Source: Propionispora vibrioides
GTDB lineage: Bacteria > Bacillota > Negativicutes > Propionisporales > Propionisporaceae
Length of the DNA stretch: 64,000 nucleotides
Direction: 5' to 3'
NCBI RefSeq assembly: GCF_900110485.1
Contig: NZ_FODY01000001.1
Coordinates: 1-64,000, forward strand
Shown here: piece after piece, positions 16,330 to 41,476 of the stretch
How positions within the stretch are numbered: position 1 is the first letter of the stretch
Layout of the letters: every line of letters starts with the position of its first letter
The notes under the pieces: generated by a model
Told to the model about the DNA's origin: nothing
What the model saw: only the letters and a program-made list of their open reading frames with translations
Database searches by the model: none
Program-made: the position numbers and the translations under genes

Positions 16330-17552
16330 AAACACCAGAGCTGTTAGCTCCGGCGGGAAATCTAGAAAAGTTGAAAATGGCACTGATCTATGGTGCTGAT
16401 GCAGTTTATATGGGTGGGAAGGCCTTTGGACTTAGAGCGTTTGGCGGCAATTTTGATGATAATGAATTGCGGGAAGGAGTCAGCCTTGCCCATAGTTTAA
16501 ATAAGAAAGCCTATGTAACGGTTAATATCTTTCCCCATAATGATGATTTAGTGGATTTACCTGATTATATAAAATATCTGGCAGAGATCTCGGTTGATGC
16601 GGCAATTGTATCTGATTTGGGCGTTTTTCGTTTATTTCGGAATATTGCGCCTGACATAGAACTGCATGTCAGTACACAAGCCAATAATGTGAATTGGTCA
16701 TCTGTCCTGGCCTGGCAGGAGTTGGGCGCCAGCCGGGTCGTGCTGGCACGGGAACTATCTTTTCGTGAAATTGCGCGGATTCGCTCCCAGACCCAGGTTG
16801 AACTGGAGGCGTTTGTGCATGGTGCTATGTGCATTTCTTATTCCGGGCGTTGTTTATTAAGTAACTATTTTACAGAACGCGATGCCAACCGCGGTGCGTG
16901 TTCCCAACCTTGCCGTTGGAAGTACGCTCTTGTGGAAGAAAAGCGTCCGGGACAATATTTTCCAGTGGAAGAGGACGAACGGGGAACCTATATTTTTAAC
17001 TCCAAGGATTTATGTCTCGTTCCACATATTCCTGAATTGGTGGAGGCCGGAGTGAATAGCTTAAAGATAGAAGGCCGCATGAAAAGTGTTCACTACGTTG
17101 CTACCGTAGCGAAGGTCTATCGGGAAGCATTAGATTGTTTTGCTGCTGATCCCGATCATTTTGTCATGCAACCGGAATGGTTGGAGGAATTGAACAAAGT
17201 ATCACACCGGGAGTATACCACTGGTTTTTACTTTAATAAAACTACTTCCGACGATCAAATCTACGGGTCTTCTTCTTATACCCAGACCCATGATTTTATC
17301 GGGTTAATTAAAGAGTATCAGCCTGAAAAGCAGATGGCTGTCATTGAACAGCGCAACCACATGAAGGTAGGCGATGAAATTGAAATTGCCCAACCTGGTC
17401 AGCGTAATTTTACGCAAAGAATTGAACGTATGTATGACGCGGAGGGCAATGAAATTATAGCTGCGCCACATCCCCAGCAAATTGTTGCCATTCCGGTCCG
17501 CGAGCCGGTTGTGCCGTATGGTATGTTGCGGCGTAGGATAGGTGAAGCATGA
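16326..17552 (+). CDS. trhP: U32 family protein TrhP, tRNA hydroxylation
   Basis: 408 aa, historically called peptidase U32, now known in E. coli and B. subtilis to act in prephenate-dependent 5-hydroxyuridine formation on tRNA. It has PELLAPAGNLEKLK at the N-terminus, the conserved HGAMCISYSGRCLLSNY and RGACSQPCRW with cysteines for a probable Fe-S cluster, and LKIEGRMKS. Start TTG overlaps the trmR stop by 4 nt after AAAGGGG. B. subtilis has two tandem copies; here there is one. Confidence 0.9.
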   Translation: MKTPELLAPAGNLEKLKMALIYGADAVYMGGKAFGLRAFGGNFDDNELREGVSLAHSLNKKAYVTVNIFPHNDDLVDLPDYIKYLAEISVDAAIVSDLGVFRLFRNIAPDIELHVSTQANNVNWSSVLAWQELGASRVVLARELSFREIARIRSQTQVELEAFVHGAMCISYSGRCLLSNYFTERDANRGACSQPCRWKYALVEEKRPGQYFPVEEDERGTYIFNSKDLCLVPHIPELVEAGVNSLKIEGRMKSVHYVATVAKVYREALDCFAADPDHFVMQPEWLEELNKVSHREYTTGFYFNKTTSDDQIYGSSSYTQTHDFIGLIKEYQPEKQMAVIEQRNHMKVGDEIEIAQPGQRNFTQRIERMYDAEGNEIIAAPHPQQIVAIPVREPVVPYGMLRRRIGEA

Positions 17553-17755
17553 AGGAAAAAGAAGTCATTTTCATAAAGGTAGAACCCAGCAATATAAATT
17601 ATGTTAATCGTATCATGGAAGGCTATGAGTATTTGGGAGTAGTAACGACGGTTAACCCGGCAGAAGGAAAATTGATGGTCCGGGTTACCTCTGATACTTA
17701 CCATGAGGTTGAAGAAATATTGAGAAAACTGCCCATATGGTTAGAATTTGTCTGA
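17549..17755 (+). CDS. DUF4911 protein
   Basis: 68 aa, overlapping the trhP stop as ATGA. Pattern FIKVEPSNINYVNRIMEGYEYLG..VRVTSD..EVEEILRKLP matches DUF4911, a small alpha/beta domain of unknown role often placed after U32 genes in Clostridia and Negativicutes. Probably co-translated with trhP. Confidence 0.75.
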   Translation: MKEKEVIFIKVEPSNINYVNRIMEGYEYLGVVTTVNPAEGKLMVRVTSDTYHEVEEILRKLPIWLEFV

Positions 17756-17780
17756 GCTGCTGCTTAAAACTATGATTAGA

Positions 17781-17815
17781 GTGCCATACTACCACCAGGA
17801 GGAGTAGTATGGCAC
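17781..17815 (+). promoter_or_regulatory. hairpin enclosing the PBP ribosome site and start codon
   Basis: Perfect 12-bp inverted repeat GTGCCATACTAC (17781-17792) and GTAGTATGGCAC (17804-17815). The 11-nt loop contains AGGAGGA, and the ATG (17809-17811) lies inside the 3' arm. Folding would expose the Shine-Dalgarno but bury the start codon, suggesting translational control. Confidence 0.6.
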
Positions 17816-19485
17816 TTTATGTTAGTCGTATTCATAAAATAGCATGGGCTATTCTTTTTATCGGGACTCTGTTGATTGTCCGTTTGGTATACCTGCAAGT
17901 GCTGGAAAGTCCGAAGCTGGCGATTGAGGGGTTAAGCGGACGGGTTGCGGAGGTTTCTTTGGGGCCGGAACGGGGCGATATATTTGACCGGAATGGCATT
18001 TTACTTACTAATACCGTACAGACGTTTTGCATCATCATTTTTCCCGCCCAGGTGGTGGACCCTTATGAAACGGCAAGTCAATTGGTTGCTTTTAGTGGCA
18101 TTGATGAGAATGAATTGATGAAAAGGATGCGGCAAGCGCAGAGACCGTTTAAGCTTCAGGCCAATATAACGGAGAAGGTGGCGGAGACTATAAATCAGCT
18201 GCAGATTCCCGGTGTGCTGGCTGTGGCCGAAAAAAGCAGATACAGCTATAGTTCTCTAGCTGTGCATACAACCGGATATATAAACGTAGCCGACAATCAA
18301 GGCGTAAGTGGAATTGAGCGTATGTACGACGACATTTTGAAAGGAGAGCAAACTGAACACGTGGCAGCCTTAGTGGATGCCGGACAGCAAATTATTCCCG
18401 GGTTAGGATATACCCGGCTGAAACTAGGCAACAACCTGGGGCCTGGTAATATTATATTAACTATTGACAGCAGAATACAAAAGATTGTTGAAAATATTAT
18501 GGATAAGCATGAAATAAAAGGGGCTGTTGTCATTATGAAACCTTCCACCGGTGAAATATTGGCTATGGCCTCAAGACCGAAATTTGATCCCACACAGATT
18601 GAAAACTATTTAACCATGAAAACAGCTCCATTCTTAAACAGAGCTCTATCTGCCTATCAGCCGGGGTCGATTTTTAAATTAGTCGTAGCGGCAGCAGCAT
18701 TGGAAAACAAAGTGGTCCGTCCAGATGATATTTTTTTTGATCCGGGATATGTTGATGTGAGTAACCGGCGATTTTATGGCTGGGATTATGAACAGGGAGG
18801 ACGCGGGAATATAACTTTTACCGATGCCATGGCGTACTCCAGCAATCCTGCCTTTATTACCGTGGGGTTGAAATTGGGCTCGGATAAATTAATTTCTTTT
18901 GCCAGGCAATTAGGCTTTGGCCAACATACGCAGCTTGCTTTTTATGGTGAGGCGGATGGAAATTTACCCGATAGTAGTCAGCCGATTTATCCAGGAGAAT
19001 TGGCCAATTTAGCGATCGGGCAGGGAAGCTTTGAAGCCACTCCCCTACAATTTGCCTGCTTAGTCTCGACCATTCTCAATGACGGAGTCAAGGTTGAGCC
19101 CTATTTAGTCAGCAGATTGGTCGACACCAGAGGACGAAGCATCAAGAGCTTTTCACCTGCGCCAGGGGTTCGCGTTTTTTCTCACCAAACTGCCGAAGAT
19201 ATGAAAAAGATGATGGCTGCCGTTACCCGGTATGGTACAGGTGAGGAAGCGTATGTTCCGGGAGTGGGTTCGGCGGGTAAAACCGGTTCGGCGGAAACCG
19301 GACGTATGCAGCAGGGAAAGAGTGTAAATCACGCATGGTTTGCCGGATATGCACCGTTGCAAAAACCGCAGTACGCGGCTGTTGTATTTGTAGAGGAAGG
19401 ACACTCCGGCGGTGATGTGGCGGCTCCTATCTTTCGCGAAATTTTTAGCGAGGTTATAGCAAATACGCCGAGTGATGACAAGTAG
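17809..19485 (+). CDS. class B penicillin-binding protein (transpeptidase)
   Basis: 558 aa, cross-links peptidoglycan outside the cytoplasmic membrane. One N-terminal membrane helix (about 11-29), a dimerisation domain with GDIFDRNG, and a transpeptidase domain with the triad PGSIFK, YSSNP and KTGSAE. No PASTA repeats. FtsI/SpoVD-like rather than PBP2; a sporulation role is possible but cannot be decided from sequence. Its start codon is inside a perfect hairpin. It is separate from mrdA at 32853. Confidence 0.9.
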   Translation: MALYVSRIHKIAWAILFIGTLLIVRLVYLQVLESPKLAIEGLSGRVAEVSLGPERGDIFDRNGILLTNTVQTFCIIIFPAQVVDPYETASQLVAFSGIDENELMKRMRQAQRPFKLQANITEKVAETINQLQIPGVLAVAEKSRYSYSSLAVHTTGYINVADNQGVSGIERMYDDILKGEQTEHVAALVDAGQQIIPGLGYTRLKLGNNLGPGNIILTIDSRIQKIVENIMDKHEIKGAVVIMKPSTGEILAMASRPKFDPTQIENYLTMKTAPFLNRALSAYQPGSIFKLVVAAAALENKVVRPDDIFFDPGYVDVSNRRFYGWDYEQGGRGNITFTDAMAYSSNPAFITVGLKLGSDKLISFARQLGFGQHTQLAFYGEADGNLPDSSQPIYPGELANLAIGQGSFEATPLQFACLVSTILNDGVKVEPYLVSRLVDTRGRSIKSFSPAPGVRVFSHQTAEDMKKMMAAVTRYGTGEEAYVPGVGSAGKTGSAETGRMQQGKSVNHAWFAGYAPLQKPQYAAVVFVEEGHSGGDVAAPIFREIFSEVIANTPSDDK

Positions 19486-22801: not shown

Positions 22802-22840
22802 CATATCTATGTAAAGAAAGGACGGAGTGACATAGATATG
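22802..22840 (+). promoter_or_regulatory. hairpin enclosing spoIIIAA ribosome site and start
   Basis: Perfect 10-bp arms CATATCTATG (22802-22811) and CATAGATATG (22831-22840). The 3' arm ends with the spoIIIAA ATG, and the 19-nt loop holds AAAGGACGGAG. Same architecture as the PBP hairpin at 17781. Confidence 0.5.
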
Positions 22841-39616: not shown

Positions 39617-41476
39617 ATGGTCAAGATAAGCCAATCCATTCTGACACAAGTTGTCAAACCCGGCCGTTATACCGGTAATGAGTTGAACAGTATAAAAAAG
39701 GATCATTCCCAAGTGGGTGTTACGATAGCTCTGGCACTGCCGGATGTGTACGAAGTAGGCATGTCCAATCTGGGTTTAAAGATTCTTTATCAAATTTTGA
39801 ACGATCACGCTTCGATCGCTGCCGAGCGGGTTTATGCCCCGTGGGTAGATATGGAAGCGCAAATGAGAGAACACAATATACCATTATATACGCTGGAGAC
39901 TTTTACACCGCTAAAAGAGCTTGATTTCGTCGGCTTTTCACTGCAATATGAATTAAGCTATAGTAATATTTTGAATATGCTGGATTTAGCGCATATTCCC
40001 GTTCTGGCAGAGGAACGGGATGATTCTTTTCCGCTGATTATCGGCGGTGGTCCCTGTGCGTTCAATGCCGAACCTGTTGCCGATTTTTTTGATCTGTTGG
40101 TTTTAGGTGAAGGGGAGGAGGTTGTGCTGGATGTCCTTAATGCCTATTCAGCCTGGAAGCGTTCGGGAAAAGCAGGTGGCAAACCGGCCTTCCTTAAGCA
40201 AGCGGCTCTGATAGCTGGCGTATATGTTCCTTCTTTGTATCAGGTTGTTTATCAGGCAGACGGTACAATTCTGGCGATTACGTCGAAAGAAGAAGGTGTA
40301 CCGCCAACAGTAACCAAAAGAATAGTTCATGATTTGGATGCTGCCATGTTTGCAACGAAACCGGTCGTACCCTTCTTAGATATTGTTCATGACCGGATTA
40401 TGCTGGAATTGTTCCGTGGCTGTACACGGGGCTGCCGCTTTTGCCAGGCCGGAATGATTTACCGGCCGGTACGGGAGCGACAACCCGACACATTGCTGAA
40501 GCTAGCTCAGGAATTGGTCAAAAATACCGGGTACAGCGAAATTTCCCTCACTTCGTTAAGCTCGGCCGATTATTCTTGCCTGCACGACACGATTCGTACG
40601 TTGATAACAACTTTTAAGGAACAGGGAGTCAGTGTTTCCTTGCCGTCGCTTAGAATTGACAGCTTTTCTATTCAGTTGGCGCAGGAGGTTCAGCAAGTCC
40701 GTAAAAGCGGTCTGACTTTTGCACCGGAAGCGGGTACGCAGCGAATGCGGGATGTTATCAACAAAGGGGTTACCGAGAACGATTTGCAGGATGCTGTCAG
40801 TGCAGCATTTACTGCCGGATGGTCGACTGTCAAGCTGTATTTTATGATTGGTTTGCCGACTGAGACGGAAGAGGACGTGCGGGGGATTGCCGATATGGCC
40901 CGCCGGGTGATGGATTGTTATAAGCGGCTTAAAGGACGTCGCGGGGCAAAAGTTACAGTAAGTGTATCTTCGTTTGTGCCCAAACCGCAGACGGCCTTTC
41001 AATGGTTCGGTCAGAATAAGATAGAGGAAATAGAAGAAAAACAAGAATTATTGAAATCCTTATTAAAACAAAGCGGCATCTCTTTTAACTGGCACGACGC
41101 AAAAACCAGTTTCTTAGAGGGTGTTTTTGCCCGGGGTGACCGCCGTTTAGGCAAGGTTATCCACCGGGCCTGGAAGAACGGTGCTAAATTTGACGGCTGG
41201 TCGGAACACTTTAATTTCAACATATGGATGCAGGCTTTTCAGGCAGAAGGGATCGATCCTCATTTTTATGCCGGGCGAAACCGGCCAGAAAATGAAGTAT
41301 TGCCGTGGGATCATTTAAACTCCGGCGTGCATAAGGCATTTTTATTGCGTGAATATGACCAAGCGATAGCTGCAGCCTACACAATAGACTGCCGGCGTGA
41401 TCGCTGTGAAGCCTGTGGCGTATGCCCCCAGTTAACAGCAAAGGTAATTGATTGGAGGCAAGAAGCCCATGCCTAA
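39617..41476 (+). CDS. TIGR03960 family B12-binding-like radical SAM protein
   Basis: 619 aa from ATG 39617 after GGAGG. N-terminal B12-binding-like domain (DVYEVGMSNLGLKILYQIL, GGGPCAFNAEP), then the radical SAM core with CTRGCRFCQAG (about residue 275) for the [4Fe-4S] cluster, and a C-terminal CRRDRCEACGVCPQ cysteine cluster. Always paired with TIGR03936, as here. The substrate is unknown; a tRNA or protein modification has been suggested from context only. Confidence 0.88.
   Translation: MVKISQSILTQVVKPGRYTGNELNSIKKDHSQVGVTIALALPDVYEVGMSNLGLKILYQILNDHASIAAERVYAPWVDMEAQMREHNIPLYTLETFTPLKELDFVGFSLQYELSYSNILNMLDLAHIPVLAEERDDSFPLIIGGGPCAFNAEPVADFFDLLVLGEGEEVVLDVLNAYSAWKRSGKAGGKPAFLKQAALIAGVYVPSLYQVVYQADGTILAITSKEEGVPPTVTKRIVHDLDAAMFATKPVVPFLDIVHDRIMLELFRGCTRGCRFCQAGMIYRPVRERQPDTLLKLAQELVKNTGYSEISLTSLSSADYSCLHDTIRTLITTFKEQGVSVSLPSLRIDSFSIQLAQEVQQVRKSGLTFAPEAGTQRMRDVINKGVTENDLQDAVSAAFTAGWSTVKLYFMIGLPTETEEDVRGIADMARRVMDCYKRLKGRRGAKVTVSVSSFVPKPQTAFQWFGQNKIEEIEEKQELLKSLLKQSGISFNWHDAKTSFLEGVFARGDRRLGKVIHRAWKNGAKFDGWSEHFNFNIWMQAFQAEGIDPHFYAGRNRPENEVLPWDHLNSGVHKAFLLREYDQAIAAAYTIDCRRDRCEACGVCPQLTAKVIDWRQEAHA

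Follow-up and report, generated by a model that had tools for sequence, protein, structure and literature searches.

The window analyzed here, a 64,000-nucleotide stretch of the Propionispora vibrioides genome, carries a gene for a class B penicillin-binding protein (PBP) behind, in order, mltG-like, O-methyltransferase, U32 peptidase, and DUF4911 genes, with the mltG-like and methyltransferase genes named from reading their sequences. The first-pass annotation had called the gene a PBP, and strong Pfam matches to the Transpeptidase and PBP_dimer domains confirmed this identity. The protein scored below the NCBIfam equivalog cut-offs for both spoVD (TIGR02214, 331 vs 688 bits) and mrdA (TIGR03423, 386 vs 455 bits). 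The features of the locus are as follows.

17549..17755, + strand: upstream gene encoding a DUF4911 protein (Pfam PF16256, E 9.7e-20), with its stop codon 29 nt before CATACTA.
17777..17792, + strand: 5' arm (anti-start arm) TAGAGTGCCATACTAC, detected as an inverted repeat, conserved and covarying.
17785..17791, + strand: CATACTA, proposed -10 box of a sporulation (sigma-F/G-type) promoter, invariant in 30/30 sites and common to spoIIQ of relatives, with an unconvincing -35 box.
17793..17803, + strand: loop CACCAGGAGGA, 11 nt, with the Shine-Dalgarno (SD) AGGAGGA at 17797-17803, as read in the sequence.
17804..17819, + strand: 3' arm GTAGTATGGCACTTTA, with the start codon ATG at 17809-17811 and codons 2-4, detected as an inverted repeat and in the local fold.
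17809..19485, + strand: class B PBP, sporulation-associated, 558 aa (Pfam PF00905, Transpeptidase, E 1.5e-73; PF03717, PBP_dimer, E 5e-15; phyletic match with spoIIIAA, spoIVA, and sigG).

The start of the PBP gene lies in a hairpin that had been described as a perfect 12-bp stem. The hairpin is real and longer than that, with 16 pairs, 15 of them Watson-Crick, and arms scored as 94% complementary by a repeat tool; the earlier placement of the SD in the loop and of ATG inside the 3' arm was correct. The local RNA fold reached -39.2 kcal/mol (z -3.95), and none of 200 shuffles was equally stable. When all SD-preceded ORF starts in the window were scanned, this hairpin gave the longest start-codon stem (15 Watson-Crick pairs), with a runner-up of 11 at spoIIIAA. 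No start-codon stem exceeded 11 pairs among 1568 candidate starts in ~0.39 Mb of further sequence from the same genome, for a total scan of ~0.45 Mb. The region occurred once in its own genome by DNA search, and a covariance model of the element found no other convincing copies there. At the gathering score, the hairpin matched no Rfam family.

We surveyed 60 genomes of the class Negativicutes, which are related to each other, so that the resulting counts are not independent events. A clear PBP ortholog was present in 29/30 spoIIIAA-positive genomes and in 0/30 spoIIIAA-negative genomes. The sole spoIIIAA-positive exception, G050, retains the element in a form truncated by the end of a contig, which brings the presence of gene or element to 30/30. 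Nearly the same set of genomes is marked by spoIVA and sigG. Because orthologs were confined to spoIIIAA-positive genomes, we consider the PBP to be sporulation-associated. In most orthologous loci, 12-59 nt separate CATACTA from the end of a preceding DUF4911 or U32 gene, and at such distances read-through from the U32-DUF4911 genes is to be expected.

The hairpin recurs class-wide upstream of PBP orthologs, where GAGGTGA precedes a start codon that lies within the 3' arm. Conservation of the arms in relatives, which the first-pass annotation had named as a check, was observed: the hairpin is mostly kept over 35 distinct orthologous sites, with covarying arms. Propionispora sp. 2/2-37 is a relative at 69% identity. 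For alignment A2, 30 distinct sites were aligned over a 16-pair helix. Across these sites, 81% of helix cells were paired, compared to 25-46% when the arms were slid, and changes on both sides were found in 39 cells, compared to 20 in the control. The covariation score was 0.233, vs 0.136 ± 0.014 for shuffled alignments (0/500 as high) and ≤0.103 for slid controls, an excess over both that indicates pairing under selection. The outer stem covaries with codons 2-5 of the PBP gene; for example, the outer pair that involves the final base of codon 2 reads A-U in 15 sequences but U-A in 13 others. Exceptions were L013 and L016, which lack CATACTA, and L017, L021, and L196, which have a weak lock or none. 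Upstream of the PBP gene in L013 (G040), another strong hairpin, CCCC-AAACAGCC / GGCTGTTTGGGG, hides the SD.

CATACTA was found in 25 of the 28 relatives first examined. Across the 30 aligned sites, which were gathered by the presence of CATACTA, the motif was invariant within the 5' arm, and the partners of its last bases were lost in up to 13/30. Pairing alone does not explain this invariance despite partner drift, and a function in DNA could. CATACTA looks like a forespore (sigma-F/G-type) -10 box and lies close to the sigma-G -10 consensus, CATNMTA. The predicted transcript start, ~17798, was assigned by analogy at 7 nt beyond the box, and the predicted leader would be unusual, at just 10-12 nt with the SD at its extreme 5' end. 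The -35 region at the PBP gene is weak and poorly conserved, leaving the probable assignment between sigma-F and sigma-G, and its distance of 17-19 nt from CATACTA does not exactly fit one sigma consensus. A sigma-E assignment was considered less likely, as spoIIIAA sites carry CATAAA...CATATCTAT with a different spacing. By eye, the regions upstream of SASP genes and spoIVA had no clean single motif.

Three genes of this genome share the box-SD-ATG layout: the PBP gene, spoIIQ, and an ABC transporter gene, in which it falls within another hairpin. At ~40360-40410 of G000:C27 (L303), a perfect inverted repeat, ATAGTATGAAGCCG / CGGCTTCATACTAT, lies just 5' of a sugar-type ABC transporter ATPase gene.

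We compared the predicted cost of opening the SD-AUG region in RNAs of different origin. In the long RNA, the SD and/or the start codon is paired to the upstream arm, and over 35 sites the opening cost was 18.1 kcal/mol for the read-through RNA vs 4.6 for the predicted promoter-born RNA. When shuffling was confined to the nucleotides preceding the predicted start, the cost was 8.4 kcal/mol, and 29/35 sites exceeded all 60 of their shuffles. At the site in the window, the cost was 19.2 kcal/mol for read-through RNA, compared to 2.4-6.5 for promoter-born RNA. The result was robust over 25-100 nt of downstream context. In the promoter-born RNA of this genome, the SD can pair with codons 14-17, with the opening cost still near 6 kcal/mol.

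Besides PBP sites, the covariance model detected two strong extra sites at the starts of spoIIQ-type M23-peptidase genes (L261, G035:C1, ~3566200; L262, G050:C40, ~17940), each with a start-codon hairpin in the range of 12-17 pairs. One of these genes lies directly behind a gene passing the SpoIID cut-off and is therefore spoIIQ by position. In B. subtilis, spoIIQ is a sigma-F gene. Where spoIIQ follows spoIID, the spacing from box to SD equals that of the PBP gene, and 20-odd relatives share the pattern GGGCATACTG/GGGCATAATG and then GAGGTGAT upstream of spoIIQ, in many cases preceded by GTTTA at a distance of 15 nt. A conserved lock at spoIIQ was rejected, as the hairpin is strong in some genomes only and absent in this genome; L286 is among the loci with a lock.

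Within the window, the start of spoIIIAA (22802-22840) carries a perfect 11-bp hairpin, CATATCTATGT / ACATAGATATG, with ATG in the 3' arm. The same design at all sporulation genes was also rejected, because the spoIIIAA hairpin is kept in the sister genome only and relatives keep the promoter without the hairpin. CATATCTATGTAAAGAAAGG at spoIIIAA is widely conserved, apparently as a promoter. In the same genome, a putative spmA-like ORF (L042, ~18785, minus strand) starts with a GTG that is enclosed in a GU-rich hairpin of 14 pairs, whose stem includes the SD.

PBP homologs from Clostridia, at 36-40% identity, often have GTATA-N15/16-GGAAA upstream, which reads as sigma-F-like. The clostridial hairpin pairs the SD with the spacer between the -35 and -10 elements (for example, L205, L212, L226, L228, L229, L239, L247). 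Among clostridial homologs with such a promoter, 18/24 were more than 5 kcal/mol costlier to open as read-through RNA, in a direct comparison of the two RNA forms over homologs that may include paralogs. We therefore treat the clostridial homologs as supporting evidence only. Long SD-spacer hairpins at a GTATA-N16-GG promoter were also seen at L205, L212, L225, L226, L236, and L250, often followed by T runs in a terminator-like arrangement, and several clostridial homologs with T runs may use termination as well.

We propose, with a probability of about 0.7, that the hairpin acts as a read-through lock and forms part of the promoter of a forespore-type PBP gene. Just a few tens of bases separate the PBP gene from the preceding U32-DUF4911 genes, and polymerase running through the latter would copy the PBP start. 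In the resulting long RNA, the 5' arm would pair with the start codon and first codons, blocking initiation. The same arm would double as the -10 region (CATACTA) of the PBP gene's own sporulation promoter, probably read by sigma-F or sigma-G. RNA from this promoter would begin ~7 nt downstream of the box, at the SD; without the 5' arm, it could not fold and would be translated. Read-through RNA, if made as we infer, would be silent, and the spore protein would be kept silent in growing cells. The strongest extra constraint at the locus, the invariant CATACTA in the 5' arm, points to promoter choice as the switch.

An alternative is a constitutive or trans-regulated translational operator, with a hairpin that is always present in PBP mRNA and is opened by a protein, a small RNA, a helicase, or temperature. 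The stable stem would bury the start codon in any RNA spanning 17777-17819, and the first-pass annotation had similarly suggested translational control by temperature, ribosome, or protein. Control as such is supported by a conserved, covarying hairpin that buries the start codon, but the suggested triggers are not. With an opening cost of ~19 kcal/mol, the stem is very stable for a thermosensor. The SD is the sole conserved sequence in the loop, whose length varies from ~8 to more than 20 nt, and the distance between arms ranges from ~8 nt to tens of nt (in Sporomusa, the arm spacing is ~15 nt longer). An operator would also leave unexplained why CATACTA is fixed where its partners drift, and the hairpin has no Rfam match; we consider this explanation unlikely. 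The variable arm spacing also speaks against a DNA operator, a palindrome bound by a dimeric transcription regulator. Although the near-perfect dyad and conserved core would suit such a site, the outer arms change along with the codons, as expected of RNA pairing and not of a fixed operator, making this the least probable of the alternatives and extremely unlikely.

The stem also stands directly behind the upstream operon and could be its intrinsic terminator, overlapping the PBP start, in which case read-through RNA would end within or just past the hairpin. Of the 8 bases that follow the stem, 6-7 are T in several relatives (for example, L029), and T runs follow the 3' arm in clostridial homologs; however, most Negativicutes sites have just 3-5 T in that stretch. 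A terminator scan, which takes loops of 3-8 nt where the PBP loop has 11 nt, found 0 terminator-like sites in 17400-18200, and the tail at this locus has 5 T in 8. A terminator in place of a lock is thus improbable, although termination could operate alongside the lock as an additional layer. It is very unlikely that the locus is an ordinary compact promoter whose -10 box is complementary to the TATG start context by chance, with unselected RNA structure. The CATA of the box is indeed complementary to TATG, and such coincidences do occur, since the spoIIIAA hairpin (CATATCTATGT) is kept in the sister genome only, but chance does not account for the compensatory changes that fall in codons 2-5, beyond the box.

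The proposed read-through lock has counterparts in known systems. For the phage T4 late genes e, soc, and I-TevI, long early RNAs bury the ribosome-binding site and/or AUG in a helix, and a late promoter in the 5' strand yields short RNAs that lack this strand and are free (PMC3014915, PMC2988022). The PBP gene resembles these in that its start is predicted to pair in a long RNA and its putative promoter lies in the 5' arm, a mechanism we infer from sequence. Unlike the T4 genes, the PBP gene is a chromosomal bacterial sporulation gene with a sporulation-type -10 box and pairing over the start codon and codons 2-5, and its lock is a computational prediction. In B. subtilis sigG (spoIIIG), a hairpin of 20+ bp is proposed to block translation of spoIIGA-sigE read-through RNA and to be absent from PsigG RNA, where it could not form (PMC5942855). 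The PBP lock differs from that of sigG in gene and class, in having a -10 box that is part of the anti-start arm, and in a structure that covaries across many genera.

B. subtilis pbpI (yrrR, PBP4b) is also a sporulation class B PBP gene, likened here by class and regulation and not by orthology. Presumably pbpI also follows an mltG/U32 cluster, and to our knowledge no read-through lock has been described there. PMC3416734 lists this gene under both sigma E and sigma F. RNA thermometers such as fourU and ROSE likewise place a hairpin over the translation start, but unlike them the PBP hairpin is without an Rfam match, has a very stable stem, and holds the SD largely in the loop.

It is possible, at somewhat less than even odds, that spore-formers share a general device in which a forespore -10 box (CATA...) also serves as antisense to the start codon (...TATG), so that genes behind housekeeping or mother-cell operons are expressed from the forespore promoter only. 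On this view, Negativicutes would conserve the device at the PBP gene, Clostridia would have evolved it anew with the arm placed in the -35/-10 spacer, and spoIIQ behind spoIID would carry it sporadically. A class-wide, covarying case at a cell-wall gene, with the -10 box itself antisense to the start codon, looks new. If the read-through lock is correct, one short sequence would be both a DNA promoter element and an RNA off-switch, and cell-type specificity would be enforced at transcription and again at translation. This arrangement would explain how forespore genes avoid leaky expression despite lying immediately behind housekeeping or mother-cell genes. It would also extend the phage T4 control scheme to bacterial development, with a sequence signature available for finding other genes locked in this way.
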